A program made the translations under genes and the position numbers. Below are positions 2,257 through 60,624 of a stretch of 64,000 nucleotides of DNA, in pieces. The notes beneath the pieces are model-generated. The model did not search any database, had not been told where the DNA came from, and was given only the letters and a program-made list of their open reading frames with translations. Source of the stretch: Verrucomicrobiota bacterium (GTDB lineage Bacteria > Verrucomicrobiota > Verrucomicrobiia > Verrucomicrobiales > Akkermansiaceae); the NCBI GenBank assembly GCA_026397725.1, contig JAPLUI010000330.1, positions 1 through 64,000 on the forward strand, given 5' to 3'. Every line of letters starts with the position of its first letter. Position 1 is the first letter of the stretch.

Positions 2257-5200
2257 ATGAACCCACGACACACAGAAACCTCGATCACACCCACGCTTGC
2301 CAGCTTGGTGATGATTCTAATGTCCATGGCAACGGCAACTGCAAGTGCGGAGATCATCGCCGATATCGCCGGTGATTTCACCGGGCCGAGCGCCGTGCCT
2401 GCCAACTGGAGTTATCTATATTCAAACCAGGCGTCCGGTGGAACCGAGGTGGCCCTGACGCCGGACCTCGCTCTTGGCAACGGTGGCAACTCTGGCTTCG
2501 GAAGGGTCGCGCCCGCCATCTTCAACTTGCCGGGGGTGCTTGGCACGCAGACTGGCGCCCAGTATGAGATTTTCACTGACGGCGATGGGAATGCGCCAGT
2601 GCTCGGTACCGACCTGCTCCTTCATCCAGGACCTGATGCTGCGAATAACACCATTATTCTCCGCTACACCATCAGTGCGGCCGAAATCAGTTCATACGGC
2701 ACCTCCGCAAGCATTGCCGGAAGCTTCCGGGAATCGATCGCCGGTGGGGATTCCGTCATGGTCAGCGTCTATCATAACGCGACCCGGTTGTTTTCCAAGA
2801 CCGGTTCGGGCGGGATCCTTGCCGAAGCCAATGGGACGTTTAATATCAGTGGCCTTGCCATGGCCGCCAACGACACGATCAGCTTCGTCGTCAATGCCAA
2901 TACCAACATCGGGGCGGACGAAACCGCGTTGCACGGCACCATCACGCTGACTCCGGTGCCGGCAAAGGGACCGATCATCGCCGACGTCGCCGGTGATTAC
3001 ACCGGGCCGGGCACCATGCCTGCCGGTTGGAGTTATCTATATTCAAACCAGGCGTCCGGTGGGAGCGAGGTCGCGTTGATGCCGGATCTCGCCATTGGCA
3101 ACGGTGGCAACGCTGGCTTCGGCAGGGTCGCGCCCGCCATCTTCAACTTGCCGGCGGTGCTTGGTACGCAGACGGGCGCCCAGTACGAGATTTTCACTGA
3201 CGGCGATCTGAATGCACCAGTGCTCGGTACCGACCTGCTCCTTCATCCAGGACCTGACGCCGCGAACAATACCATCATTCTGCGCTACACCATCAGTGCG
3301 GCCGAAATCAGTTCATCCGGCACCTCCGCAAGCATTGTGGGAAGCTTCCGGAATCGAGTCCCTTACGGGGATTCCGTCACCGTTAGCATCTATCACAACG
3401 CGACCCGGTTGTTTACCCAAACCGGTTCAGGCGGTATCCTCACCCAGGCCGATGGGCTGTTTGATATCAGTGGCCTTGCCGTGGCCGCCAATGATACGAT
3501 CAGCTTCGTGGTCAATGCCAATACCAACATCGCTGCGGACGAAACCGCGTTGCGCGGCACCATCGCGCTGCTGCGGCCCAGGAGCATTTATTGGACCGGG
3601 GCCGCCTCGAGCGCTTGGAACACGGTCGCCACCAACTGGAAACTCACCAGCAACAACGTGGCCGCCGAGTTCCTGACCGGTGACGCGGTGCTCTTCCACG
3701 ACAGCCCGGCGAGTCACACGGTGGCCATCTCCAACGGCGAGGTCAGCCCGTTCTCCGCAACCTTCGACAACACCACCGCCACCGCCTACACCTTGCAGGG
3801 CAGCAATGGCATCGCCACGGGCATTCTCACCAAATCGGGCGACGGGACGCTGACCATCACCAATTCCAACAGCACCAGCGGCGCGGTTGCACTCAACGGC
3901 GGGCTCACCTCGATCACTAACAGCGGCGGCCTCGGCAGCGGTGTCATCACCTTCGACGGGGGCGTGCTGGAATACAACGGCGCGACCGCCAGTTGGGCCC
4001 GCAATCTCGCCGTCAAAGCCGGTGGTGGCTCCATCGATGTCACCGATAGTGGCGCCACCCTCAGCACCACCGGCACCCTCTCCGGCGCCGGCCTGCTCAC
4101 CAAGCTGGGGGCCGGCACGCTGGCGCTCGGGCAAACCACTGGCACCGTCAGCACGCCCATTGCCATCACTGCCGGCACGCTCAATTTGAACTGCGGCGCG
4201 GGAGCGGTCACCTACTCCGGCAAGTTCACCGGCAGTGGCGGGGATTTGCGGCTGGTCGGCAGCGGCACCCTGACCCTCACCGGCGCGAATGACTACACTG
4301 GCACCTCCACCGTCACCCAAGGCACCTTGGCCGTCAACAACACCAGCGGCAGCGGCACCGGCAGCGGCGCGGTCACCGTGCAGACCACCGCCACTCTGGC
4401 CGGCACCGGCAACATCAGTGGCAGCGTCAGCATCGAGTCCGGCGGCTTCATCGCGCCGGGCAATGCCGGCATCGGCACGCTAACGGTTGCGTCCGCGGCG
4501 CTCACCGGCACCTATAAGTGCCAACTGGGTGCCACCGCCGCCGACCAAGTCGTTATCAGTGGTGCCCTCACGGTCAACCCCGGCGCGGCCATCACCATCA
4601 CCACCCTCGCCATTCCGACGGCCGCGAGTTATACCATCGCCAGCTATGGCTCGTTGGTCGGCAGCCTGCCGGTTGTCACCGGCATCCCCTTCGGCTATGT
4701 GTTGAACACCGCCACCGCCGGCCAGCTCAAATTGGCCAAGAGCGGCGACCTCGGCACCTGGGCCGACAGCTTCCCCGGCCTGGCGGACAAATCGCCCGCC
4801 GGTGATCCTGATGGCGACGGCATCTGCAATCTGATGGAATATATCATTGGCGGCGACCCGCGGGTCGCCAGCACCAAATTCCTGCCCACGCCAGCCATCG
4901 TCGGCTCCAACCTGGTCCTGAGCTACCAGCGCCGCGACGATTCCGAGAGCGACACCACCCAGTTCGGCCAGTGGGGCACCGACTTGATCACATGGACCGA
5001 CCTCGCACCGGTTCTGGTCAATGAAAATGGCAGTGCCCCCGACGACATGGAAATCAGCATCCCGCTGTCGAACGCGGCAGGCGGCAAACTCTTCGGCCGC
5101 CTCCAGGTCCCCCTGCCCATCAGTCTGCGCTCGCTGCTGGCGGAGATGACCAACCGCGAAGCGCTCCCTAAGTGGCCGGTCGCGGAATACACGCTCAAAC

Positions 5201-6648
5201 AGGCCAGCAGTTACGACCGCAGGGAGACGAATCCGGCCGATGCGGCGACCTGGTTCGCCAACTATGACAGCGCGGAGTCCATCCGGACTGAAACAAATGG
5301 CGGCCGCACCGAGTGGGTCATCATGGAACACGGCGGCCCGGGTGCCGTCACCCGCATGTGGCTGCCGCTGGAGCCGTCCAAAGACCAGCAAATCATCCGT
5401 TTTTATTTCGACGGTTCCGCGACGTCGGCGATTGAGGTTCCGTTCAACGAATTCATGAGCGGGCGCGGGTTTGTCAAACCGCCGCTGGCGTTCGTGGCGT
5501 CCAATGAAAGCGACTTGCGCAACCAGCTCAATGCCGTGCCGCCGGTCCTGCGGGGCATCGGCGGGAATCTCTATCTGCCGATTCCCTTTGCCCGCGGCTG
5601 CAAAATCACCCTCGATCAAGTTCCGTTCTATTATATCGTCAATTACCGCGCCTATGCGTCCACCGTCCCGGTGGAAACCTTCAGCATGGCCGGCTACGCG
5701 GCCGCACAAGACGCCGTGGCCGCGGCTGGCGAGGCATTGCTCGCCGCGCCGGATTTCACGGTCGGCGAGCCCGGCCAGCAAGCGACCCTCGCGCCGGGGC
5801 AGGAACTCGCCCTCAACCTGCCGCCCGGCGCGGCCGCCGTGCGCAACATTCGCGTGCAAGTCGCTCCCGCGGCCGCTCCTCAGGCGCTGCGTTCGATCGT
5901 GCTGACAGCCGAGTTCGACGGCGAAGCGACCATCTGGTGCCCCATCGGCGAGTTTTCCGGTGCCGGTGCCCGGCTCAATCCGGTGCAGGATCGGTTCCGC
6001 ACGGTGCGGGCCGATGGCGCCATGTTCTCCCGTTGGATCATGCCCTACCACAGCGCGGGCCGGCTGGCGCTGAAAAACCTCGGCAGTGTGCCCGTCACCG
6101 TCACCCTCGCGGCGGTCACCGCGCCGTGGCAGTGGGACGAGCGCTCCTTGTTGTTTCATGCCAACTGGCGCTTCCAGGGCGCGTTCAACACCGTGCCTCA
6201 ATTCGACTGGAACTACCTCGAGATCCAAGGCCGCGGCGTCTATGTGGGCGACACCCTCACCGCCTTCAACCGGGTTGACCCCTGGTACGGCGAGGGTGAT
6301 GAGCGCATTTACATCGACGGGGAAGCCTTCCCTTCCCATCTGGGAACCGGCACCGAAGACTACTACGGCTACGCCTGGGGCATGACCGGATTTTTCAGTT
6401 CGCCGTTCATCTCCCAGCCGCAGCGCGACGCCCAAAGTGGCTGGAAAGGCTTCACCACCACCTCGCGGGTGCGCTTGCTCGATGGCATCCCGCTGCGCAC
6501 CTCGCTCAAGCTCGACATGGAAATCAGCCACCACACCAGCACCCAGTTGGATTATGCCGTCGGCACCTTCTGGTATGCCCGCCCAGGGGCCACCCACAAC
6601 CGACCGCCGCAACCGGCGGCTGCCGCGCTACCGCTGGCGACGTTCTAG
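2257..6648 (+). CDS. Secreted fusion: two beta-sandwich modules, PATR block, GH172 (DUF2961) domain
   Basis: This 1463-residue protein starts with a signal peptide (cleavage near ATASA, residue 31). Two repeats of about 200 residues follow (32-235 and 236-437); they open IIAD(I/V)AGD(F/Y)TGP, end near GADETAL.GTI, and are of unknown function. Residues 445-845 are PATR repeats, then the DPDGDGICNLMEYIIGGDP tail. Where both relatives stop (LFGRLHVTMP), this chain reads LFGRLQVPLP and continues in frame into about 500 residues of DUF2961, now glycoside hydrolase family 172. Glutamates E1346 (WYGEGDE) and E1367 (GTGTEDYYG) are 21 apart, the spacing I recall for the catalytic pair of the characterised bifidobacterial GH172 enzyme (E270/E291). 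GH172 enzymes act on fructofuranose or arabinofuranose linkages; the substrate here is unknown. It is probably a surface-anchored or matrix-bound enzyme. Confidence 0.85.
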   Translation: MNPRHTETSITPTLASLVMILMSMATATASAEIIADIAGDFTGPSAVPANWSYLYSNQASGGTEVALTPDLALGNGGNSGFGRVAPAIFNLPGVLGTQTGAQYEIFTDGDGNAPVLGTDLLLHPGPDAANNTIILRYTISAAEISSYGTSASIAGSFRESIAGGDSVMVSVYHNATRLFSKTGSGGILAEANGTFNISGLAMAANDTISFVVNANTNIGADETALHGTITLTPVPAKGPIIADVAGDYTGPGTMPAGWSYLYSNQASGGSEVALMPDLAIGNGGNAGFGRVAPAIFNLPAVLGTQTGAQYEIFTDGDLNAPVLGTDLLLHPGPDAANNTIILRYTISAAEISSSGTSASIVGSFRNRVPYGDSVTVSIYHNATRLFTQTGSGGILTQADGLFDISGLAVAANDTISFVVNANTNIAADETALRGTIALLRPRSIYWTGAASSAWNTVATNWKLTSNNVAAEFLTGDAVLFHDSPASHTVAISNGEVSPFSATFDNTTATAYTLQGSNGIATGILTKSGDGTLTITNSNSTSGAVALNGGLTSITNSGGLGSGVITFDGGVLEYNGATASWARNLAVKAGGGSIDVTDSGATLSTTGTLSGAGLLTKLGAGTLALGQTTGTVSTPIAITAGTLNLNCGAGAVTYSGKFTGSGGDLRLVGSGTLTLTGANDYTGTSTVTQGTLAVNNTSGSGTGSGAVTVQTTATLAGTGNISGSVSIESGGFIAPGNAGIGTLTVASAALTGTYKCQLGATAADQVVISGALTVNPGAAITITTLAIPTAASYTIASYGSLVGSLPVVTGIPFGYVLNTATAGQLKLAKSGDLGTWADSFPGLADKSPAGDPDGDGICNLMEYIIGGDPRVASTKFLPTPAIVGSNLVLSYQRRDDSESDTTQFGQWGTDLITWTDLAPVLVNENGSAPDDMEISIPLSNAAGGKLFGRLQVPLPISLRSLLAEMTNREALPKWPVAEYTLKQASSYDRRETNPADAATWFANYDSAESIRTETNGGRTEWVIMEHGGPGAVTRMWLPLEPSKDQQIIRFYFDGSATSAIEVPFNEFMSGRGFVKPPLAFVASNESDLRNQLNAVPPVLRGIGGNLYLPIPFARGCKITLDQVPFYYIVNYRAYASTVPVETFSMAGYAAAQDAVAAAGEALLAAPDFTVGEPGQQATLAPGQELALNLPPGAAAVRNIRVQVAPAAAPQALRSIVLTAEFDGEATIWCPIGEFSGAGARLNPVQDRFRTVRADGAMFSRWIMPYHSAGRLALKNLGSVPVTVTLAAVTAPWQWDERSLLFHANWRFQGAFNTVPQFDWNYLEIQGRGVYVGDTLTAFNRVDPWYGEGDERIYIDGEAFPSHLGTGTEDYYGYAWGMTGFFSSPFISQPQRDAQSGWKGFTTTSRVRLLDGIPLRTSLKLDMEISHHTSTQLDYAVGTFWYARPGATHNRPPQPAAAALPLATF

Positions 6649-6670: not shown

Positions 6671-6740
6671 TGAGTATCGGAAATTGCGCAAGAAAGTATT
6701 TGCATGCGGCAAAATCCGGCGTAAATTGAACGTCATATCA
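6671..6740 (+). promoter_or_regulatory. Shared upstream cassette, copy A (probable promoter)
   Basis: The sequence runs TGAGTATCGGAAATTGCGCAAG, then TTTGCATGCGGCAAAATCCGGC, then GTAAATTGAACGTCAT. It aligns with copies at 11805, 20346 and 59036. TTGCAT and TAAATT, 16 bases apart, fit a sigma-70-type promoter, with the conserved CGTCAT near the likely transcription start. The 42 bases between its two AAATTG words are missing from the related sequence at 39277. It drives the PATR gene at 6877, 146 bases downstream. Confidence 0.55.
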
Positions 6741-6785
6741 CCCCTTTGCAAGGCGCGCATCATCATGGCTCCTGCGGTGGGGGTG
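6739..6785 (+). ncRNA. Hairpin in 5' leader, copy A
   Basis: CACCCC (6739-6744) pairs with GGGGTG (6780-6785), with an inner GC-AGG/CCT-GC helix. Aligned without gaps from CGTCAT, it occupies the same columns as the stems at 11897 and 39304, and two columns that are C-G pairs there are U-G pairs here. This copy is the weakest of the three. It could be a structured cis-regulatory RNA or a DNA inverted repeat bound by a protein. Confidence 0.4.
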
Positions 6786-6876
6786 GTTCCCAATTCGAGC
6801 CAAGCCCGACCTAGCAAATACAAACCCCGCAGATGGAGATCAACTGAAACCACAACAAACAACAACCAGAGATCAA

Positions 6877-9800
6877 ATGAAGCCACAACACACAACAACC
6901 TCATTCGCACCCAGGATTGCCAACTGGGTGGCGATTCTATTGTCAATGGCAGCGGTGCCGGCAAACGCCACGACCATCGCTGACATCGCTGGTGATTACA
7001 CCGGACCGACCACCTTGCCGGCCGATTGGAGTTATTTTTATTCAAGCCTAACGTCCGGTGCGACCGAGTACGCGCTGACGCCGAACCTCACCCTTGGCGT
7101 TGCTACCGGTGGTACCAATGTTGGCTTCGGCACACTGGGCGGGACGCTCAACTTGCCGGGGGTGCTTGGCACGAAAATTGCCGCCGCCCAGTTCGAGATT
7201 TTTCCTGACGGCGACGCGAATGCACCAGTGCTCGGCACCGACCTGGTCATGCATCCAGGATCTGATGCGGAACATTCAACCTTGATTCTGCGCTACACCA
7301 TCAGTGCGGCTAAAATCGCTTCCTACGGCACCTCCGCAAGCATTGCCGGAAGCTTCCGCGATTTGGTCAATCCCACTGGTGGGAATTCCGTTACCGTAAG
7401 CGTCTATCACAACACGACCCAGTTGTTTACCAAGTCCGGTACAGTCGGTACCCTTACCCAGGCAAACGGGACGTTTAACATCAGTGATCTTACCGTGGCC
7501 GCCGATGACACGATCAGCTTCGTGCTCAATAGTAATAATGAGTGGGGTGGCGACGAAACCGCGTTGCGCGGCACCATCGCGCTGGTGGTTCCGGTGCGGC
7601 CCTCGGCCAACATTGATTGGACCGGTGCCGCCTCGAGCGCCTGGAACGCGCTCGCCACCAATTGGAAACTCGCCAGCAACGACGCGCCCACCGAGTTTCT
7701 GCCCAATGACACGGTGTTCTTCCATGACAACCCGACCACTCCGGTCGTGGACATCTCCGACGGCAATGTCAACCCGCTCTCCGCGACCTTCGACCACACC
7801 ACCGCCACCGCTTATACCTTGCAGGGCACTAACGGCATCGCCACGGGCACTCTCACCAAATCGGGCAACGGGTCGCTGACCATCACCAATTCCAACAGCA
7901 CCAGCGGCGCGGTCGCGCTCAACGGCGGACTCACTTCGATCACCACCAGCGGCGGCCTCGGCAGCGGTGCCCTCTCCTTCGACGGCGGCGTGCTGGAATA
8001 CACCGAAACCGGCGCCACCGCCAACTGGGCGGCGCGCAATCTCACCGTCAACGCCGGCGGGGGCTCCGTCGATGTCACCGACAGTGGCACCACCCTCAGC
8101 ACTACCGGCACCCTCTCCGGCGCCGGCCTGCTCACCAAGCTGGGGGCCGGCACGCTGGTGCTGGGGCAAAGCACCGGCACCGTCAGCACGCCCATCGCCA
8201 TCAGCGGCGGCACGCTCGATTTGAACCACGGCGCGGGTACGGTAACCTACTCCGGCAATTTCACCGGCAGTGACGGGAGTTTGCAGATCGACGGCAGCGG
8301 CACCCTGACCCTCACCGGCGCGAATGACTACACTGGCACCACCACCGTCACCCAAGGCACCTTGGCCGTCAACAACACCAGCGCCAGCGGCACCGGCAGC
8401 GGCGCGGTCACGGTGCAGAGCACCGCCACTCTGGCCGGTACTGGCAGCATCAGTGGCAGCGTCAGCATCGAGTCCGGCGGCTTCGTCGCCCCGGGCAATG
8501 CCGGCATCGGCACCCTCACCGTCGCGTCCGCGACCCTCAGCGGCACCTACAAGTGCCAGTTGGATGCCACCACCGCCGACCAAGTCGTTATCACCGGCGC
8601 CCTCTCGGTGGACTCCGGCGCAGTCATCGCCATCACCACCCTCGCCGTTCCGACGGCCGCGAGTTATACCATCGCCACCTATGGCTCGTTGGTCGGCAGC
8701 CTGCCGGCGGTCACCGGCATTCCCAGCGGCTATGTGTTGGACACCGCCACCGCCGGCCAGCTCAAACTGGCACCGGTGCCGGCCAACGTAGCGATCATCG
8801 CCGCGGTCACCGGGCCGAGCAGCATGCCTGCCGGCTGGAGTTATCTTTATTCAAACCAAGCGTCCGGTGGCACCGAGGTGGCGCTGACGCCAGACCTCCC
8901 GATTGGCAACGGTGGCAACTCCGGCTTCGGCAGGCCCGAGCGCAGCGGGTTCTTCTACTTGCCGGGGGTCATTGGCACGCAGAGTGGCCCCCAGTACGAG
9001 ATTTTCACTGACGGCGATCTGAATGCGGGAGCGCTCGGTAGCGACCTGCTCATTCATCCAGACAATCTCGCTGCAGCTTCAAACGTCATTCTGCGCTACA
9101 CCATCAGTGCGGCCGCAATCGCTGCACACGGCAACTCTGCAAGCATTGCCGGCAGCTTCCGGGAGTTAATCCCCGGCGGGGATTCCGTCACCGTCAGCGT
9201 CTATCATAACGCGACCCAGTTGTTTGCCAAGACCGGTTCAGGCGGTACCCTCACCCAGGCCAATGGGACGTTTGATATCAGTGGCGTGACCGTGGCCGCC
9301 GATGACACGATCAGCTTCGTGGTCAATGCCAATACCACCGTCTCTGCGGACGAAACCGCGTTGCGCGGCGCCATCACGCTGACGGTTCCGGTGCGGCCCG
9401 CGGCAGACATTTATTGGACCGGGGCCGCCTCGGAGGCCTGGAACACGCTCGCCACCAACTGGGAACTCGTCAGCACCAACGTGGCCACCGAGTTCCAGCC
9501 CAATGACGCGGTGTTTTTCCATGACAACCCGACCACTTCGGTCGTGGACATCTCCGACGGCAACGTCAGCCCGCTCTCCACGACCTTCGACAACACCACC
9601 GCCACCGCTTACACCTTGCAGGGCAGCAACGGCATCGCCACGGGCACTTTCAACAAATCGGCCGACGGGTCGCTGACCATCACGAATTCCAACAGCACCT
9701 ACGGGGCGGTCGCGCTCAACGGCGGGCTCACTTCGATCACTTATGGCGACGGCCTCGGCAGCGGTGCCATCACCTTCGACGGCGGCGCGCTCGAATACAC

Positions 9801-11804: not shown

Positions 11805-11896
11805 CGCTGAACTGCACATGACGGCAAAAGCACATCGGACTTCCGCAAGAAACAAGTTGCGTGCTGCAAAATCCGGCATAGATAGATCGTCATCTT
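11805..11896 (+). promoter_or_regulatory. Shared upstream cassette, copy B (probable promoter)
   Basis: The cassette starts CGCTGAACTGCACATGACGG, shared with copy C at 20346, then TTCCGCAAGAAAC, TTGCGTGCTGCAAAATCCGGC and ATAGATAGATCGTCAT. TTGCGT and TAGATA are 16 bases apart. It overlaps the extended ORF-track start (11907), which supports the later start at 11988 for the GH172 gene. Confidence 0.6.
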
Positions 11897-11940
11897 ACCC
11901 CGCCGTATGGCGTGCAGTTCCATCGCCATTGCGGCGGGGT
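11897..11940 (+). ncRNA. Hairpin in 5' leader, copy B
   Basis: This is a nearly continuous helix: ACCCCGCCG/CGGCGGGGT (11897-11905 with 11932-11940), then ATGGCG/CGCCAT (11907-11912 with 11924-11929), with an 11-base apical loop. It lies between CGTCAT and the start codon of the GH172 gene and is followed by TGGCTGTCCG, which the copy at 39304 shares. One G-C pair here is A-T in that copy, a compensatory change that argues for a selected structure. Its role (riboswitch-like, protein-bound or attenuator) is unknown. Confidence 0.5.
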
Positions 11941-11987
11941 GGCTGTCCGTTTCAATCAACCACGATCTAACCAACAACAGGAATCAA

Positions 11988-13676
11988 ATGAAACCCCGCA
12001 AGCAGTCCACCGTCCGCCGCTCCGGCTCAATTTCAGTCGCAGTGAGCTTCGCCATGTCGTTGTCCGCCGTTCACGCCGTGCCCCTCACCGGGGATGGGCG
12101 CTTTGATCAGGGCGGCGGATTCAATTGCCTAGCCCAAACGGTGTTAACCAAGGACGAAGGGAACCTCGGGGATTCCGGCAAGCCCCCGGACACCGTTACC
12201 TTTCCGCAGCTATTGGGGGAGATGAGCGATCCGTCTTCCCTGGCCCGCTGGCAATCTGAGGAATGGACAGGCAAGCAGGCGAGCGCGTTGCGGGTGGACA
12301 AAAGGCATAACGTGGGGTTCCACGCCGAGGTTAAGGAGATTGGCAACTACATTCGCGAAGAGAGGAATGAAAACGGGCAAAGCGAGTTGGTGTTGATGGA
12401 GGACTTGGGCCCCGGGGCCGTGGTGCGGATCTGGTTTGGCAACGTGGAGGGGAATACCAATACGATCATGCGGGTGTATTTTGACGGGGATAAGAACGCA
12501 TCGATCATCACAAAGTGCGGGGATTTCGGTTATGGGAAAGATTTTATCAAGCCCCCGTTTGCCGCCAACCGGGCCCGGGGTGCGAATGTGTACCTGCCGA
12601 TCCCATATGCAAAGTCCTGCAAGATAACGGCGGAGAACAGCAAGGACTTGTTCTATGTGATCCAATACCGGTCGTATGGTCCGCAAACGCGCATCGAGAC
12701 TTTCGATAGATCGCGGTATGAACGCGTGCTCGAACTCGTCGCTGCCACCGGGGCCTCCTTGGTGAAACCCGCCGTTGACTTGAACGATTTCCACGCCGTA
12801 ATCCATGAAACCCTGACCCCTAAATCCTCGGCTCAAGCTGATTTGAAACAGGGAGACCGGGCTGTCAATTTTCTGGCCGTGAAAATTGAAGCCAAGGATA
12901 TGAGGGCCGCCTTGCGCAGCACGTTTCTTAAACTCGATTTCGACGGAAATGAAACCGTCAATTGTCCCGTGGGAGATTTCTTTGGCAGTGGCTTGGGCTT
13001 GAATCCCCTGGACGACTGGATCAGGAGCGTGCGGCCAAACGGCGCAATGTCGTGCCGCTGGGTCATGCCATACCAGAAAGCGGCCCGCCTGAGAATTGAG
13101 TGTAACGGGAGCGAGCCGGTCAAGGTTGCCGTCGCGATCAATTATCAATCCTGGAAATGGGATGATCGCAGCATGTATTTCCACTCGAATTGGGGGCTTT
13201 TGGAGAAGCTGGGGATTCTGCCGCGGCCCAATTTCAATTTCGTCCACATTGAGGGCAAAGGAGTCTATGTGGGAGACACCCTTACGATAACCACTGATTC
13301 GCAGTTATGGTGGGGAGAGGGCCCCGAAAAGATCTGCATTGACGGCGAGGGTTTCCCGTCCCAGATCGGGACCGGCACGGAGGATTACTATGGCTATGCC
13401 TTTGGCGAGCGCGAGTTGTTTTACGCGCCTTTCCACTCCCAGCCCAGGACACCGGAAGGTCCCGCCTGGTTGGGAACAACAGTGAACACAAGGATCCGCT
13501 CGCTGGATGCCATTCCCTTCAAAAAGTCGCTTAATCTGGATCTGGAAATATGGACCCATGATAGCAGTGGAAGCGTTCAAAAGTATGTGGATTATGCCGT
13601 GGCAACCTATTGGTACGGCTTCCCGGATGCCAAGGGGCACTGGATTAGCGAGCCGGTCAGGATGAAGACACCGTGA
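11988..13676 (+). CDS. Secreted GH172 (DUF2961) glycoside hydrolase
   Basis: I take the ATG at 11988, not the ORF-track 11907: it has AGGA six bases upstream, begins a clean signal peptide (cleavage near AVHA, residue 27), and the longer version would translate the leader hairpin. The 562-residue protein is one DUF2961/GH172 domain, about half the length of the fused version at 2257. E444 (WWGEGPE) and E465 (GTGTEDYYG) keep the 21-residue spacing of the proposed catalytic glutamates. Known GH172 members hydrolyse difructose anhydride or mycobacterial arabinan furanosides; the substrate here is open. Base composition is less GC-rich and the CTAAC/GTTAG word common further on is almost absent from this gene and the next two, hinting at a different history. 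Confidence 0.88.
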   Translation: MKPRKQSTVRRSGSISVAVSFAMSLSAVHAVPLTGDGRFDQGGGFNCLAQTVLTKDEGNLGDSGKPPDTVTFPQLLGEMSDPSSLARWQSEEWTGKQASALRVDKRHNVGFHAEVKEIGNYIREERNENGQSELVLMEDLGPGAVVRIWFGNVEGNTNTIMRVYFDGDKNASIITKCGDFGYGKDFIKPPFAANRARGANVYLPIPYAKSCKITAENSKDLFYVIQYRSYGPQTRIETFDRSRYERVLELVAATGASLVKPAVDLNDFHAVIHETLTPKSSAQADLKQGDRAVNFLAVKIEAKDMRAALRSTFLKLDFDGNETVNCPVGDFFGSGLGLNPLDDWIRSVRPNGAMSCRWVMPYQKAARLRIECNGSEPVKVAVAINYQSWKWDDRSMYFHSNWGLLEKLGILPRPNFNFVHIEGKGVYVGDTLTITTDSQLWWGEGPEKICIDGEGFPSQIGTGTEDYYGYAFGERELFYAPFHSQPRTPEGPAWLGTTVNTRIRSLDAIPFKKSLNLDLEIWTHDSSGSVQKYVDYAVATYWYGFPDAKGHWISEPVRMKTP

Positions 13677-37532: not shown

Positions 37533-37614
37533 GAGGACTTATATGAAATGCGATCTATCAGTCATGCGTACACGGACCCGCTCCATGAACCCAACATCCC
37601 CGCAACAGCTATGA
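37531..37614 (+). promoter_or_regulatory. Strong ribosome site with short leader frame
   Basis: AGGAGG at 37531 lies six bases before an ATG at 37543 that opens a 23-codon frame (MKCDLSVMRTRTRS..). Its TGA overlaps the ATG at 37611 in ATGA form. This may be a coupled leader peptide for the GH106 remnant, or a leftover gene start. Confidence 0.35.
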
Positions 37615-38612
37615 TCACCACCCCGCCGGGATCCGTGCCTAACGCGGCACGTTCCAGCCAATTCCTCGCCATCGGCGCGTCCTTGATACTGGCGCCGCTC
37701 GCCGCGCTGAGCGCCGCACCACCCGTGGCCGCACCGGCGGCCAAGGCTGCAGCGTTGGCGTGGCCGGAGGTGAGCCGTCCCGAGACCAGGCCGTGGACAT
37801 GGTGGTGGTGGCATGGCAGCGCCGTGACCAAGGCTGACATCACCGCCAACCTGGAAGCCCTGCAACGCAGCGGCATCGGTGGCGTCTCCATCGTCTGCCT
37901 GCTAGATGTGCGTGATGAGCAGGCGGTCAAACTCCGCTATCTGTCGATGGAGTGGATCGAAGCGGTCGCCCATGCCGTGCGCGAGGCCCACCGCCTGGGC
38001 ATGGACGCGGACATGTCGCCGGTGCCCGGTTGGGCCTTCGGCGGGCCTTGGGTCAAGCGCGACGACGCCTGCTCGCAGGTGGATGTGACGCGGCTGCCCT
38101 TGGCCGACTGCCAGAAAAACGGCATGCGGATCGCGAGCTTCGCAAACGGCACCCCCGGCACGCCGGAACGGGGTGATCTAGCAACGGTGATGGCACAGGC
38201 TGCGGACGGGACCATGGTCGACGTGACCGCCCGGGTGGATGACGAGGGGATTCTGCGTTGGACCGCGCCGCCAGGGACGTGGACGCTCTATACAGCCAAG
38301 GCAGGCGGATCATCGGCGAGGTCATCTTTGAGCCTGGCAACGAACTCGATCTCAATGCCCTCTATGACATCCCGCAAGTTGATATGGGTGGGCCGCCGAG
38401 CTGGCACTTTCCCAACGGCCACTACTCCACCTATCATCTGTTCCGCCGCGGCAAGACCGCGAGTTCGCCCGCGCACATCCTCGGCAAGCCGCTGATCGCC
38501 TCCGAGACCCTAACCGTCATGGGCCCCATCCTCGACACGCCGCTCGAACTGGCCAAGGCGAAGATCGACTACGATCTGGTCGGCGGGATCAACCACACCG
38601 CATGGCGTTCCG
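37611..38612 (+). pseudogene. GH106 alpha-L-rhamnosidase remnant
   Basis: The ATG at 37611 begins a leader (FLAIGASLILAPLAAL) and a clear GH106 N terminus (RPWTWWWWHGSAVTKADI, LEALQRSGIGGVSIV). After LYTAKAG near 38300 the frame shifts and a large part of the barrel is missing; a second fragment (GNELDLNALYDIPQVDMGGP, HILGKPLIASETLT) is readable in another frame up to about 38612, where it joins the kinase remnant. Only about a third of a GH106 remains. It would have been the third GH106 of the locus. Confidence 0.8.
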
Positions 38613-39120
38613 GTGTGCATGCCGATTGGCGACAACCAGGCCAGCATCATGGGTGTCGCGGGCCTGGCCCGGGACGTGGCTGTTGTCAACCTGGGCACCG
38701 GCGGCCAGATATCCATTCCCCAGCCCGAGCCCGTGTGGGTCGATGGCTTTGAGACCCGTCCCATGCCCCTCGGCGGCTACGTCCTCGTGGGCGCGAGCCT
38801 TCATTGAAGGGATGGTGGGGGAGTTGGCGGATTTGTTTCACGCCGCCGGGACGGCGGGGGTCGCACGGATTGCTGCCAGCGGCAACGCCGTGCGCGAAAA
38901 CGGCTTGTTGCTGGAGACGATCGCGGCCCGGTTTGGCCGGCAGTGTTGTTTCAGCCAGCACCCGGAGGAGGCCGCCTTTGGTGCCGCTTACGCGGCAGCG
39001 ATCACGACCTGTCCGGGGGCGGTTCCTCCTCGCGCCGAGCACCACAGTCCAATTGCCTTGCCGCCGCTCCTCGGAAAAGCAACCAACTCCAACCAAACCA
39101 CAAATAACGAGCATGAATAG
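38604..39120 (+). pseudogene. FGGY-family sugar kinase remnant (sedoheptulokinase-like)
   Basis: VPVCMPIGDNQASIMG and VVNLGTGGQISIP (to LPLGGYVLVGASL) are the phosphate- and sugar-binding blocks of an FGGY carbohydrate kinase. At about 38800 the frame changes and roughly 100 residues are missing before IEGMVGELADLFHAAG, ASGNAVRENGLLLETIAARF and EEAAFGAAYAA, the kinase C terminus. The N-terminal half is absent. The fragment begins exactly where the GH106 fragment ends. FGGY kinases phosphorylate sugars after import, so the ancestral locus probably had a cytoplasmic catabolic arm. Confidence 0.82.
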
Positions 39121-39252
39121 CAATCCATATCTAATCGGTAGCGTCCTGGTGGCGGCTTTGGGCGGGCTGCTGTTCGGGTTTGACACCATTGTCATCTGAG
39201 GCACGACCGAGCAGCTCACGAAAGTCTTCGGACTGAGTAACTTCTGGCTGGA
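39113..39252 (+). pseudogene. MFS sugar-porter remnant
   Basis: MNSNPYLIGSVLVAALGGLL.FGFDT is the first transmembrane helix and GGLLFGFD signature of a sugar porter (major facilitator family). A TGA at 39197-39199 replaces the usual Ser codon (the family reads FDTxVISGT), and translation past it still reads GTTEQLTKVFGLSNFWL before homology stops. About 45 of 450-550 residues remain. It overlaps the kinase remnant by eight bases. Confidence 0.85.
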
Positions 39253-39276
39253 AGAAGGTCCGGCGTTGATGAAAGA

Positions 39277-39303
39277 TTGGTCGGAAATTGCACGTCATAT
39301 CAG
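39277..39303 (+). promoter_or_regulatory. Deleted copy (E) of the shared upstream cassette
   Basis: TTGGTCGGAAATTGCACGTCATATCAG equals the two ends of copy A joined across its repeated AAATTG word; the -35/-10 part between them is absent. The GH106 gene downstream therefore probably relies on another promoter or read-through from upstream. Confidence 0.45.
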
Positions 39304-39342
39304 CCCACCGACGACGCTCTGTTCAATGGGTGACGCGGTGGG
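39304..39342 (+). ncRNA. Hairpin in 5' leader, copy E
   Basis: CCCACCG (39304-39310) pairs with CGGTGGG (39336-39342), followed by ATGGCTGTCCG as in copy B. Relative to copy B a G-C pair has become A-T, preserving the stem. The distance from CGTCAT to the start codon is 99 bases here and 100 in copy B. Confidence 0.45.
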
Positions 39343-39391
39343 ATGGCTGTCCGGTCCGGCCAGCCGCAAGCCGATATCCCCAACCAATCCA

Positions 39392-42300
39392 ATGAACCCC
39401 GCAAGCAAAGTCCAACCTGCATGTTCCCACCGCCGCCTCGTTGCCGTTGCGGTCCTGATGTTTGCCACCGGGCTTGCCGCAGTGGCGCAGGGGACCCCGC
39501 CCGCCAGCGACCTGGCGGCACAATTCGCCGCCCCGCCGATGGCCGCCAAACCGCACGTCATGTGGCACTGGATGGGCGCGGACTTCTCCAAACCGGGAAT
39601 CACCAAAGACCTCGAAGCCATGCAGGAACTCGGCATCGGCGGGGCCGAAATCTTCAATCTGGGTGCGGCAATCGGCCAGGTGCCCTGGCCGGAGCAAACC
39701 TATCGGGGCCAGGCCTACTGGGAGGCCATGCGCCATACCCTCGCTGAGGCCAAACGCCTGGGCATCGAGATCAGCCTGATTGGCACCCCCGGCTATTCCA
39801 CCACCGGAGGTCCGTGGATCGGCCCGGAGCGCGGCATGCAGAAGGTGGTGTGGAGCATCACCGAAACCGAGGGCGGCAAGCAATTGTCGCTAGCGCTGCC
39901 GGCCATCAGCGGTGGGGCCTTGGGGCGGGGGATTGCGGTGCTGGCGGTGCCGCTCAACCAGGCGTACTTAAGCGTCAAGGAGGTAGTGGATGTCACCGCC
40001 AAGACGGATGCCGCAGGCACCTTGACGTGGCAGGCGCCGCCAGGGAAATGGAAGATCTATCGGTTTGGCCACGCGCCGACCGGCAAAGCGCCGCACCCGA
40101 TCCCGGAGGACTTGGTCGGGCATACCTTTGAAGTGGACAAGATGAGTGCCGAACACAACCAATACAACTGGCAGAATGTGCTAGGCCCGATCAAACAGCA
40201 CCTTGCCGAGTATGTGGGCAACACCTTGAAAAGCATCTCCATCGACAGCTATGAATCAGGCGATCAGAATTGGACGGCGGGTTTCAGGGAGGAGTTCATC
40301 AAGCGCAAGGGATATGACCCGGTGCCGTGGTTGGTGACGCTGGGTCAGCCATTGGTTCATACTTGGTTCTTTGATGCCAACCGGCACGTCAGCATGTATG
40401 CTTTGGCCGGTCCGACCACTTATGCCACGGAGTTGTCCAATCCGGCGCTCACGGTATTGGGCAGCGCCGAGGAGACCAAGCGTTTCGAGTGGGATTACCG
40501 TGATGTGATCAGCGGCCTGTTTTTTGACAACGGCTGGAAGGTGGCCAAGCAGATGATGAATGAGTCAGGCCTTGAATTCAGGCATGAATGTTACCGGGGG
40601 CCGTTCGACAGGAACCAAGGCGTCACCGCCTCGGATGTTCCCACGGTTGAGTTTTGGACGGAGAAGGGGAATGTCAATGCGCCCCCCATTTTCCCGTCCG
40701 ATATTGGCGCGGCTCAAGCCGCCGGCAAAGCCCTGATTGCCTCCGAGGCGCTCACCGGCAGTCCAAATCTGAGCATGTGGACCGAGGACCCCGCATGCCT
40801 GAAAATCTTTTGTGACGAGGCATATGCCCAAGGGGTGAATCGGTTTATCCTGCACCACTGGACGCAGCAACCGTTTGACGACAAATACCAGCCGGGGCGG
40901 ACCATGTATGCGTGGGGCACGCACTTCGGGCGGCATCAGACCTGGTTTGAACCGGGCAAGGCGTTTTTTGCCTATTTGGGTCGCTGCCAGACGCTGCTGC
41001 AACAAGGCGAACGGGTGATGGATTACCTCTGCATGGATCAGTTGGACGGCGAAGCGGATGTGATCGCCAAGGATGTGTTTCTGCAAAGCGAGATCAAAGT
41101 CAAGGACGGCAACATCGTTTTGCCAACGGGCCGGAGTTATGCCTTCATGGTGTTTTCGCGGGATGGGGCAATGCTGCCCGAGGTGGCGCAGAAAATCAAA
41201 GCCATGGTGGCGGCTGGTGCCACGGTGGTCTCGACCCGGCCTAACAAATCACCGAGTTTGAAGGATTACCCGCAATGCGAGGAGGCCCTGCGCCAATTGG
41301 GCGATGAAGTGTGGGGCACCGGCACGGAGAACCGTTATCAGAATGGTTATGTGTTTGCCAAGGTCGAGGATGCGAGGAAAAAGCTCAACCTCAAATCGGA
41401 TTACACCATCGAGAAAGCGAGTGTCGAGGCCGCAAAGGTCATGGTCCTGCACCGGCGCAATGCCGAGGTGGACCTTTACTACATCGCCAACCAGTCGGAC
41501 AAGGCGCAGGACCTTTTGCTGTCGTTCCGGATTGCCGGCAAGCAGCCCGAACTGTGGCAAGCGGAAGATGGCACCATGACCGATGCGCCGGTGTGGCATG
41601 AGCAAGACGGCCGCACCTGTGTCGATCTTCACTTGAAGGGCGTCCAGACAATCTTTGTCGTGTTCCGCAAGGCAGCCTCGCAAACCGGGCAGATCGTGGC
41701 GGTTGATACCAAAGGCGTCCCAGCCGTGGTGGTCATGAAGCAACCGGGCGTGGCAGTCTTGCGCTCGGCAACTCCCGTTACCGCCGAGGTCGTGTACTCC
41801 ACAGGCAAGAAACGCGCGGTGGCACTCACGCCGGAGCCGGCGGTGGCGGTGACGGGCGATTGGGCGGTGACCTTTGCGCCGAAACTCGGCGCGCCATTCA
41901 CCAAGACGTTGCCTGAGTTGATAGATTTCAGCAAGGCGGAGAGCAAGGAAGTGAAGTATTTTTCCGGTTCGGCGACCTATCGAAAGAAGATCGCCCTATC
42001 CGCCGGCTCCCCGCAGAACAGGCGCACGGTATTGGATTTGGGGCTGCTCAATGATATCGCGCAGGTGCGGATCAACGGCAAGGATGCCGGCGTCTTGTGG
42101 TATCCACCGTACACGGCGGATATCACCGATTGCCTCAAGGCCGGCGACAACCAGCTCGAAATCGTCGTGACTAACAACTGGGCGAACCAGCTCATCGGCG
42201 ATGAGCAGGAACCCCGGGATTTCGAGGTCGGCGCTAATGTGGATTTTGGCGCCGGCAGTTTCGGTGGCCCGTTGACATGCTATCCGGAGTGGTTCATCAA

Positions 42301-42433
42301 GAACCAGCCGCGGCCATCCCGAGGGCGCAAGACCTTCACGACCTGGCTCTACTTCACCAAGGACAGCGCGGTGCAACCCGCGGGACTGGTGGGCCCCGTG
42401 CGCTTGGTCATGCAAGCGGAGCAGGAGTTGTGA
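39392..42433 (+). CDS. Secreted GH106 alpha-L-rhamnosidase (second copy)
   Basis: The ATG at 39392 is preferred over 39266 because the longer version would translate the leader hairpin; it opens a signal peptide (RRLVAVAVLMFATGLAAVAQ). The 1013-residue protein has the GH106 opening (HVMWHWMGADFSKPGITKDLEAMQELGIGGAEIF), the barrel (SIDSYESGDQNW, KALIASEALTG, RFILHHWTQQPF) and the C-terminal sugar-binding sandwich (YRKKIAL.., RINGKDAGVLWYPPYTADIT). It is complete for the family. It heads a series of closely spaced genes to 59026. Confidence 0.9.
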   Translation: MNPASKVQPACSHRRLVAVAVLMFATGLAAVAQGTPPASDLAAQFAAPPMAAKPHVMWHWMGADFSKPGITKDLEAMQELGIGGAEIFNLGAAIGQVPWPEQTYRGQAYWEAMRHTLAEAKRLGIEISLIGTPGYSTTGGPWIGPERGMQKVVWSITETEGGKQLSLALPAISGGALGRGIAVLAVPLNQAYLSVKEVVDVTAKTDAAGTLTWQAPPGKWKIYRFGHAPTGKAPHPIPEDLVGHTFEVDKMSAEHNQYNWQNVLGPIKQHLAEYVGNTLKSISIDSYESGDQNWTAGFREEFIKRKGYDPVPWLVTLGQPLVHTWFFDANRHVSMYALAGPTTYATELSNPALTVLGSAEETKRFEWDYRDVISGLFFDNGWKVAKQMMNESGLEFRHECYRGPFDRNQGVTASDVPTVEFWTEKGNVNAPPIFPSDIGAAQAAGKALIASEALTGSPNLSMWTEDPACLKIFCDEAYAQGVNRFILHHWTQQPFDDKYQPGRTMYAWGTHFGRHQTWFEPGKAFFAYLGRCQTLLQQGERVMDYLCMDQLDGEADVIAKDVFLQSEIKVKDGNIVLPTGRSYAFMVFSRDGAMLPEVAQKIKAMVAAGATVVSTRPNKSPSLKDYPQCEEALRQLGDEVWGTGTENRYQNGYVFAKVEDARKKLNLKSDYTIEKASVEAAKVMVLHRRNAEVDLYYIANQSDKAQDLLLSFRIAGKQPELWQAEDGTMTDAPVWHEQDGRTCVDLHLKGVQTIFVVFRKAASQTGQIVAVDTKGVPAVVVMKQPGVAVLRSATPVTAEVVYSTGKKRAVALTPEPAVAVTGDWAVTFAPKLGAPFTKTLPELIDFSKAESKEVKYFSGSATYRKKIALSAGSPQNRRTVLDLGLLNDIAQVRINGKDAGVLWYPPYTADITDCLKAGDNQLEIVVTNNWANQLIGDEQEPRDFEVGANVDFGAGSFGGPLTCYPEWFIKNQPRPSRGRKTFTTWLYFTKDSAVQPAGLVGPVRLVMQAEQEL

Positions 42434-59035: not shown

Positions 59036-59103
59036 GTATCAGATTTTCCGCAAGAGAATACTTGTGTGTTTCAAACTGCGGCCTCAGCATAATCGTCTTA
59101 TCC
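59036..59103 (+). promoter_or_regulatory. Shared upstream cassette, copy D (probable promoter)
   Basis: GTATCAGATTTTCCGCAAGA matches copy C; TTGTGTGTTTCAAACTGCGGC and CATAATCGTC align with TTGCGTGCTGCAAAATCCGGC and ATAGATAGATCGTC of copy B, with three extra bases in the spacer. CCGCCG of the leader stem's 5' arm is kept but its 3' partner is not. It starts nine bases after the previous stop and lies 47 bases before the oxidoreductase start. Confidence 0.55.
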
Positions 59104-59149
59104 AACCGCCGAACCAGCACCTTAACTCCACCCGTAGCCGTTCATCCGT

Positions 59150-60624
59150 ATGAAAACCGTACTGAGTCGCCGCCACTTCCTCCACACCGCCGCTGCGGCA
59201 AGCCTCGGCCTCGCCACCCTGGGTCGTGCGCCGGCGCGCGCCGCCTCGCCGAATGGCAAGCTCCGCGTTCTGTCCATCGGCGTGGTTGGCACCATCGGCA
59301 GCCTTGACCGCAAGCAGGTGGCCGGTCATCCCGAGGCGACTCTGTTAGCCGTCAAGGCCACCCGCTTCCCGGGCCAGGAACTGCGCTGGGACAAATCCCA
59401 GCTCGGGGGGCATTGTACCGGTATCGGGTTGGATACCAACTGCCGACGGGAAACGCGGTGTTGCCGGTCTATCATTTCCGGACGCCGGACCCGCAGGCGA
59501 AGACCTTGCGCTTGGTCGCGTTCAACGATCTGCACAGTCAGGACCAGACCCTCGAAGCACTCATGCGCTTCGTGAAACCCGACGACTACGCGTTTTCCAT
59601 GTTGCTGGGCGACAAGTCGATTGACGCGGTCATCATCGCCACCCCCGATCACTGGCATGTGCCGGTCGGCTTGGCGGCAGTGCGGGCGGGTAAGGATGTC
59701 TATATCGAGAAGCCGCTCGGCCACACCCTCAACCAGAACCGGGCGCTGCTGGAGGCCTGCCAAAAGCACCAGCGGATTTTCCAATACGGCACCCAACAAC
59801 GCAGTCAGGAACTGCTCAAGCGCGGCATCGAGTTGGTGCTCAATGGTTACATCGGCGAGTTGCAGCGCATCGAGGTGTGGGCGCCCGCCGGCATGGGCGG
59901 CGGCTCGCTCGACGAAATCCCGGTGCCGGCCGGCCTCGACTATGATCTTTACCTCGGACCCGCACCGATGAAACCGTGCAGCAAGGACCGAATCACGAGC
60001 AATGGCTCCTATCATTGCTCCGATTATTCGATCGGCTTCATCGCCGGCTGGGGCGCCCACCCGCTCGACATCGCGATCTGGGGCATGGACTACGACCAGA
60101 AAGGCCCGGCCAGTTTCCGCGGTACCGGCAGTTTCCCGACCCCAGACGCGCTGTTTAACAATTGCGCCACCTGGGATGTGGAAATCAAGTTCGCCGGCGG
60201 CCTGCAGATGCACTTCATGAGCAGCAACCACTCCGCACCCATCGTCAAAAAGTATCGCAGCTCTGGTGGTGATGGCGACGGCACGACCTTTTTCGGCTCG
60301 AAAGGCTGGGTCAGCTTGAGCCGCGGCGGCGTCGCCGCGAGCAACCAGGAGTGGTTCAACATGCGGGAGTGCGAAGGCACCAAGCGCGTGCTCTATCACA
60401 ACCAGTACTACCAGTCCTTCGTCGATTCCGTCCGCGACCGCAAGCCTTCGATCGCACCCATGGAGGACGCGGTGCGCTCAGACGCCCTCAGCCACCTCTC
60501 GCTGCTCGCCATCCAATCCGGCAGCGAAGTGGTCTGGGACCCGCAGGCCTATGCCATCCAGTCCCCCGAGGCGCTCAAGGCCCGGATGACCCACCAAGTC
60601 CGCGGAGCGTGGGAACAAAGCTAA
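59150..60624 (+). pseudogene. Gfo/Idh/MocA oxidoreductase interrupted by a metallophosphoesterase fragment
   Basis: The ATG at 59150 encodes a Tat signal (SRRHFLHTAAAASLGLATLG) and the first Rossmann strand of a Gfo/Idh/MocA oxidoreductase (KLRVLSIGVVGTIGSLDRK, to HPEATLLAV). The next 200 bases, in another frame, read YRYRVGYQLPTGNAVLPVY, LVAFNDLHSQDQTLEALM and MLLGD, which resemble the Fn3-like and metal-site parts of a calcineurin-type phosphoesterase. From SIDAVIIATPDHWHVPVGLA (about 59610) the oxidoreductase continues to its normal end, including YIEKPL and GWGAHPLDIAIWGMDY. The front and the rest are out of frame and about 60 residues of the NAD-binding fold are replaced, so no working enzyme is expected unless translation starts at 59413. 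Confidence 0.78.

Follow-up and report, generated by a model that had tools for sequence, protein, structure and literature searches.

The leaders found upstream of three genes in a verrucomicrobial glycan-degradation region contain a real, modest and lineage-restricted element. Its stem is part of a start module composed of a promoter, the block CGTCATATC, a hairpin, a C/A-rich stretch, the start codon and, in some copies, a signal peptide. There are seven homologous copies in two species, five in the source genome (G000) and two in a congener (G058), all on the same strand and upstream of genes for signal-peptide proteins. The hairpin is probably real and, as an RNA, probably an ordinary leader element; the status of a new riboswitch is unsupported. 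We hypothesize, at about even chances, that it lies close to the 5' end of the mRNA and stabilises or tunes the message, within a copied start module that drives secreted or cell-surface proteins.

Three leaders in a glycan-degradation region

The window, by which we mean the whole stretch of DNA analysed, comprises positions 1-64000 of contig C22 of G000, a genome of 12.56 Mb in 584 contigs. This size far exceeds that of every genus member searched (1.5-7.0 Mb), and contamination is 5.5%; the assembly possibly contains mixed strains or has undergone a genuine expansion. The window is a glycan-degradation region with GH106, two GH78-type rhamnosidases, DUF2961 and a GH20 fragment, and also encodes GDSL esterases, an alpha-L-fucosidase-like protein, malectin domains, and LamG and PATR surface proteins. 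The window contains three occurrences of CGTCATNTNANCC in all, every one on the + strand (6731, 11888 and 39293; 0.10 expected from shuffling), and each of them sits at one of the leaders at 6739, 11897 and 39304 (copies 1, 2 and 3). The features of the leaders, and of a relative in the same window, are:

6700..6727, +, sigma-70-like promoter of copy 1 (TTGCAT, 16 nt, TAAATT), read from the sequence and conserved in two further G000 copies (on contigs C173 and C90); it overlaps ECF-like GCAAAAT-N15-CGTC spacing and fails a stricter generic sigma-70 scan
6731..6739, +, CGTCATATC block of copy 1, directly 5' of the stem
6739..6784, +, leader hairpin of copy 1, arms ~6739-6750 and 6773-6784, with U.U and A.G mismatches
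6841..6879, +, start region of copy 1, a tandem repeat (GATCAACTGAAACCACAACA..., then GATCAAATGAAGCCACAACA...), with the ATG at 6877 that starts a PATR-repeat protein (Pfam PATR)
11845..11860, +, imperfect upstream dyad GCAAGAAACAAGTTGC of copy 2, seen in the alignment (perfect GCAAG-N6-CTTGC in the C90 version); a possible regulator site overlapping the -35 element
11857..11884, +, sigma-70-like promoter of copy 2 (TTGCGT, 16 nt, TAGATA), absent from the generic scan
11888..11896, +, CGTCATCTT block of copy 2
11896..11941, +, leader hairpin of copy 2, arms 11896-11907 and 11930-11941, with a perfect 9-bp inverted repeat (11897-11905/11932-11940) at its core
11988..13676, +, DUF2961 gene with signal peptide, its first ~30 codons a near-identical match to those of otherwise unlike PATR genes on C173 and C90
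39270..39296, +, ECF-like promoter of copy 3 (TGAAAG, 17 nt, CGTC)
39301..39345, +, leader hairpin of copy 3, arms 39301-39313 (bulged A39311) and 39334-39345, with a G.A mismatch
39392..42433, +, GH106 alpha-L-rhamnosidase gene with signal peptide (Pfam)
59043..59143, +, decayed relative with a similar promoter block and no hairpin, 5' of a frame-broken gene at 59150

Aligned from CGTCAT, the three leaders place the stem in identical columns, as the first-pass annotation of this DNA had proposed. Its description of copies 2 and 3 was also borne out: one G-C pair becomes A-U between 11897 and 39304 with the helix kept (alignment columns 68-101), TGGCTGTCCG downstream of the stem is common to both, and the spacing from CGTCAT to the ATG is 100 and 99 nt. 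For copy 1, the two reported C-G to U-G changes are present (columns 69-100 and 70-99), but the single mismatching column is in fact accompanied by another; U.U is found at 68-101 and the unmentioned A.G at 63-106. The spacing from CGTCAT to the ATG in this copy is 146 nt, and its start region appears tandemly duplicated by eye. The greater length is mostly due to a ~31-nt tandem repeat at 6841-6905, which is near-perfect, surrounds the start codon of the PATR gene and has CTG for ATG in its upstream unit.

The Tat-signal oxidoreductase-like gene at 59150-60624 is interrupted by stops or a frameshift, through either decay or assembly error. At 39114-39260 there is the truncated start of a sugar-transporter-like gene (MNSNPYLIGSVLVAALGGLLFGFDTIVI, followed by a stop), and a GH106 fragment (37548-38495) also lies upstream; the region just 5' of the intact GH106 gene, with this transporter start and GH106 fragment, is a rearranged junction.

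Copies and distribution

DNA and covariance-model searches recovered two further strong copies in G000, C173:26035-26149 and C90:3836-3950, both of which keep the stem. Two more are present in one congener, G058 (Akkermansiaceae bin-1587, isolate Loc090519-7m_bin-1587): one is the ortholog of the 39304 leader, located 5' of a GH106 gene that is 93% identical over the query, and the other precedes a LamG gene and is missing the CGTC. A five-sequence model was run over 73 genus genomes, and a seven-sequence model over 260 family genomes, 387 genomes drawn from the order and 39 relatives with laxer filters; no additional true copy was found in any of these sets, and the element is present in 2 of the 73 genus genomes. 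Distant copies could escape detection, because searches over more than 40 genomes apply strict filters. Rfam 15 (4227 families) yielded no match at gathering thresholds and no leader family at E<=10.

No leader of this type precedes the other GH106 paralogs (78-84% identical in G058, 35-56% in other species), many of which resemble internal operon genes. In the G058 counterpart of the C173 and C90 genes (locus L026), the 5' arm is not kept, as judged by eye. Several weaker candidates were dropped as leader relatives: the weak model matches in genomes G040 and G038 fall on a promoter and coding start, those in loci L013, L018 and L019 on the promoter of a TetR-like/efflux gene pair, and the pattern matches in G044, L057 and L059 are located within coding sequence.

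Conservation of the helix

In the seven-row sequence alignment, the stem pairs run from columns 62-107 to 73-96, and 91.6% of the cells of the 12-bp helix are paired, a value that falls to 39-61% when the helix is slid by 1-3 columns. Shuffled alignments matched the real one in pairing in 1 of 500 cases, in the number of helix pairs with two-sided changes (three) in 18 of 500, and in covariation score in 22 of 500. The columns 73-96 vary among the copies as A-U, G-C or G-U, and G-U pairs favour pairing at the RNA level over the DNA level. Among the three closest paralogs, 1 of 20 columns is variable in the arms versus 9 of 26 in the loop (p 0.017). Compared with shuffled sequences, folding gave z-scores of -4.3 for 11897, -3.5 for C173, -2.6 for C90, -1.9 for 6739 and -1.5 for 39304.

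Between the 39304 leader and its G058 ortholog, five substitutions fall in the arms, and four of these add up to two compensations (naive p 0.002-0.02). Each of the four is an AT-to-GC change, and the leader of G058 is rich in GC; the tidy compensation is partly expected from such drift. Corrected for drift, p is 0.006 with the leader rate outside the arms and 0.16 with the loop rate. The predicted minimum-energy fold of the G058 ortholog differs from the shared helix (-30.8 versus -27.3 kcal/mol).

Statistical support for a conserved helix is thus moderate. The covariation lies at the borderline, with GC drift as a partial confounder; the helix is likely to be under selection, though this is unproven. 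The first-pass reading of a conserved cis-acting RNA holds for a structured 5' leader before glycan and secreted-protein genes, seen in seven copies, with the helix kept through G-U pairs and compensation and with arms steadier than the loop; it gave the covariation too much weight and did not separate promoter conservation. Significant covariation in many genomes, the support it called for, did not appear; the covariance-model searches confine the element to two species, and shuffled alignments reach the two-sided count as given above.

Promoter conservation and its separation from the hairpin

The conserved block begins ~50 nt 5' of the stem and reaches 5' of the likely transcription start, so that much of the conservation is promoter conservation. 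Four G000 copies carry a dyad (GCAAG-N6-CTTGC or a variant of it) upstream, together with a sigma-70-like TTGCAT-N16-TAGATT element, whose spacing is fixed and which persists on contig C129 of G058 as TTGCTT-16-TAATTT; a generic promoter scanner does not flag the TTGCAT-N16-TAGATT promoters. The 39304 leader and its G058 ortholog instead carry TGAAAG-N17-CGTC, and clear similarity between the two species begins there. An early reading in which copy 3 arose from a copy-1-like leader by promoter deletion was abandoned, since the G058 ortholog has the same TGAAAGATTGG promoter.

The pattern TGMAARAT-N10-TTG-N2-CGTCATATC, with at most 3 mismatches, retrieved all five G000 leaders and three G058 operons, together with three more sites that are likely chance matches; the reversed control gave none, which speaks for specificity and not for independent discovery, as the pattern was drawn from these very leaders. 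Several operons share a conserved -35 element and a CGTC -10 element at fixed spacing, the pattern of an ECF-type promoter, of which a CGTC -10 box is typical (PMC3426412). The hairpin begins 8 nt after the start of the CGTCAT block, and judging by the spacing, either promoter type would place the predicted transcription start 0-8 nt 5' of the stem.

Promoter motif and hairpin are separable, because some relatives have the promoter and no hairpin: two G058 promoters of this type are without a comparable hairpin, as is the 59043 relative. In G058, the motif is found 5' of a DUF2961 gene that has no hairpin, and the hairpin is consequently not merely promoter DNA.

Related promoter blocks were seen by eye 5' of two uroporphyrinogen-decarboxylase-like genes of G058 (loci L028 and L031, contigs C198 and C216), which suggests a regulon wider than glycan enzymes. 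In L013, L018 and L019, which belong to three genomes, a GCAAGTAATCGCTTGCATGCAAGC-type palindrome lies between the TetR-like gene and an efflux outer-membrane-like gene (around locus position 1501); it is a probable TetR operator and resembles the dyad upstream of the leaders. GCAAGTAATCGCTTGC, which is similar to the dyad GCAAGAAACAAGTTGC, adjoins a TetR-like/efflux gene pair in other loci.

A start module on different genes

The genes that bear the module encode PATR, DUF2961, GH106 and LamG proteins. The 11897, C173 and C90 copies share promoter, leader and ~30 signal-peptide codons (MKPR.QSTVRR...SFAMSLSA.HA), and despite this shared start the mature proteins differ, with DUF2961 at 11897 and PATR-like repeats at C173 and C90. 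Such a shared start on unlike mature proteins points to a start module that was duplicated or recombined, or to a stretch in between that was lost. Because another window gene, 2257-6648, joins PATR and DUF2961, a simple way to this outcome would be for the PATR part to have been deleted.

To our knowledge, little is known about how glycan-degrading loci are regulated in Verrucomicrobiota. The start module shared by PATR, DUF2961, GH106 and LamG genes makes a co-regulated regulon a concrete hypothesis that can be tested, and suggests a way for new secreted proteins to gain promoter, leader and signal peptide in one step.

Proposed function and alternatives

In the function that we favour, the transcription start would probably lie between the CGTCAT block and the stem's first base, making the hairpin the first structure of the mRNA, ~40 nt or more 5' of the start codon, and leaving the rest of the leader short, C/A-rich and predicted to be mostly unpaired. 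The hairpin would act passively. Secondary structure at the 5' end stabilises bacterial mRNA, as both RppH and RNase E require a 5' end that is single-stranded (PMC3997798), and pairing here may likewise slow pyrophosphate removal and 5'-end-dependent RNase entry, giving these long mRNAs a longer lifetime and higher output. Duplication or recombination would have spread the module. No terminator-like site was found at the leaders, the stem of copies 2 and 3 stops ~46 nt short of the start codon and does not sequester it, and no aptamer-like or ligand-binding core was seen; neither form of riboswitch expression platform, terminator or sequestered start, was observed. A passive, decay-hindering hairpin is the simplest function because there is no terminator, start-codon pairing or core beyond the promoter-proximal block. 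Against stabilisation stand the 6739 and 39304 leaders, which fold only modestly better than shuffled sequences, the alternative minimum-energy fold of the G058 ortholog, and the lost 5' arm of L026.

Shared ancestry could by itself explain the hairpin as a functionless passenger copied along with promoter and genes, its apparent covariation arising from descent and composition drift. We consider this possible, with clearly lower confidence than stabilisation. There are just seven copies in two species, the covariation shuffles are borderline (18-22 of 500), AT-to-GC drift accounts for the two compensations of the ortholog with p up to 0.16, and related leaders without a hairpin exist; nevertheless, nearly all outer-stem cells stay paired while the loop diverges, and columns 73-96 alternate between G-C, A-U and G-U across paralogs. 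That the leader senses a sugar, or binds a protein or sRNA regulator, and so controls the glycan genes in the manner of a riboswitch is unlikely. Its position before rhamnosidase, DUF2961 and surface-protein genes would suit this role, as would some conserved sequence after the stem (GGCTGTCCG or GGATAGCCG) and the alternative folds that the GH106 leaders allow, but there is one simple helix with a variable loop and no terminator, start-codon overlap or Rfam match; the flanking conserved bases coincide with promoter and start site, and none was found beyond the two species. It would be rather improbable, too, that a lineage-specific sugar-sensing or protein-bound RNA acts with the ECF-type promoter to coordinate a rhamnose-rich glycan regulon, and that promoter, leader and signal peptide travel together as a cassette fusible to new secreted enzymes.

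We regard it as quite improbable that the element works at the DNA level, as an operator dyad or a mobile palindromic repeat. Palindromic REP repeats tagged with CGTC are a described class (PMC3733652), and the element opens with CGTC followed by a palindrome. Yet it has just five full copies in 12.6 Mb, with constant promoter context and orientation and similar start-codon distance; no stem-only copies rise above noise, the absence of dispersed copies weighing against a REP; and the G058 LamG copy is without CGTC. The 22-26 nt between the arms and the presence of G-T wobbles are unsuited to a DNA operator. Translation of the region, either as a leader peptide or as an N-terminal addition to the main protein, we judge very unlikely, even though the upstream frame is open in several copies (for example, ATG 11907 is in frame with 11988) and an ATG is found at the matching place in G058 C129. 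In-frame stops interrupt C90 and the G058 GH106 ortholog, the frame is not constant between copies, the changes among close paralogs hit all three codon positions, and the signal peptides begin at the downstream ATG. The leader-peptide reading was rejected.

Comparison with known systems

Like the riboswitches and motifs in Rfam 15, the element is a cis-located 5' leader with a conserved helix; unlike them, it matches none of the 4227 families and has no conserved multi-helix core. A CGTC tag followed by a stem-loop is shared with the CGTC-tagged REP sequences (PMC3733652), but those are many, dispersed and mostly downstream of genes, whereas the five full copies here are promoter-linked, 5' of genes and in one orientation. 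ECF promoters such as ECF41 (PMC3426412) similarly have a CGTC -10 element and a ~17 nt spacer common to unrelated operons, although the -35 element of the leaders is TGMAAR and not TGTCACA. The 5'-terminal stabilising stem-loops of enterobacterial mRNAs, of the ompA/papA type, are cited in PMC3997798. The leader sequence is not known to be related to theirs, and the phylum is another. The element resembles them in its hairpin near the predicted 5' end, the single-stranded stretch before the start codon, and the exported or surface proteins encoded downstream.
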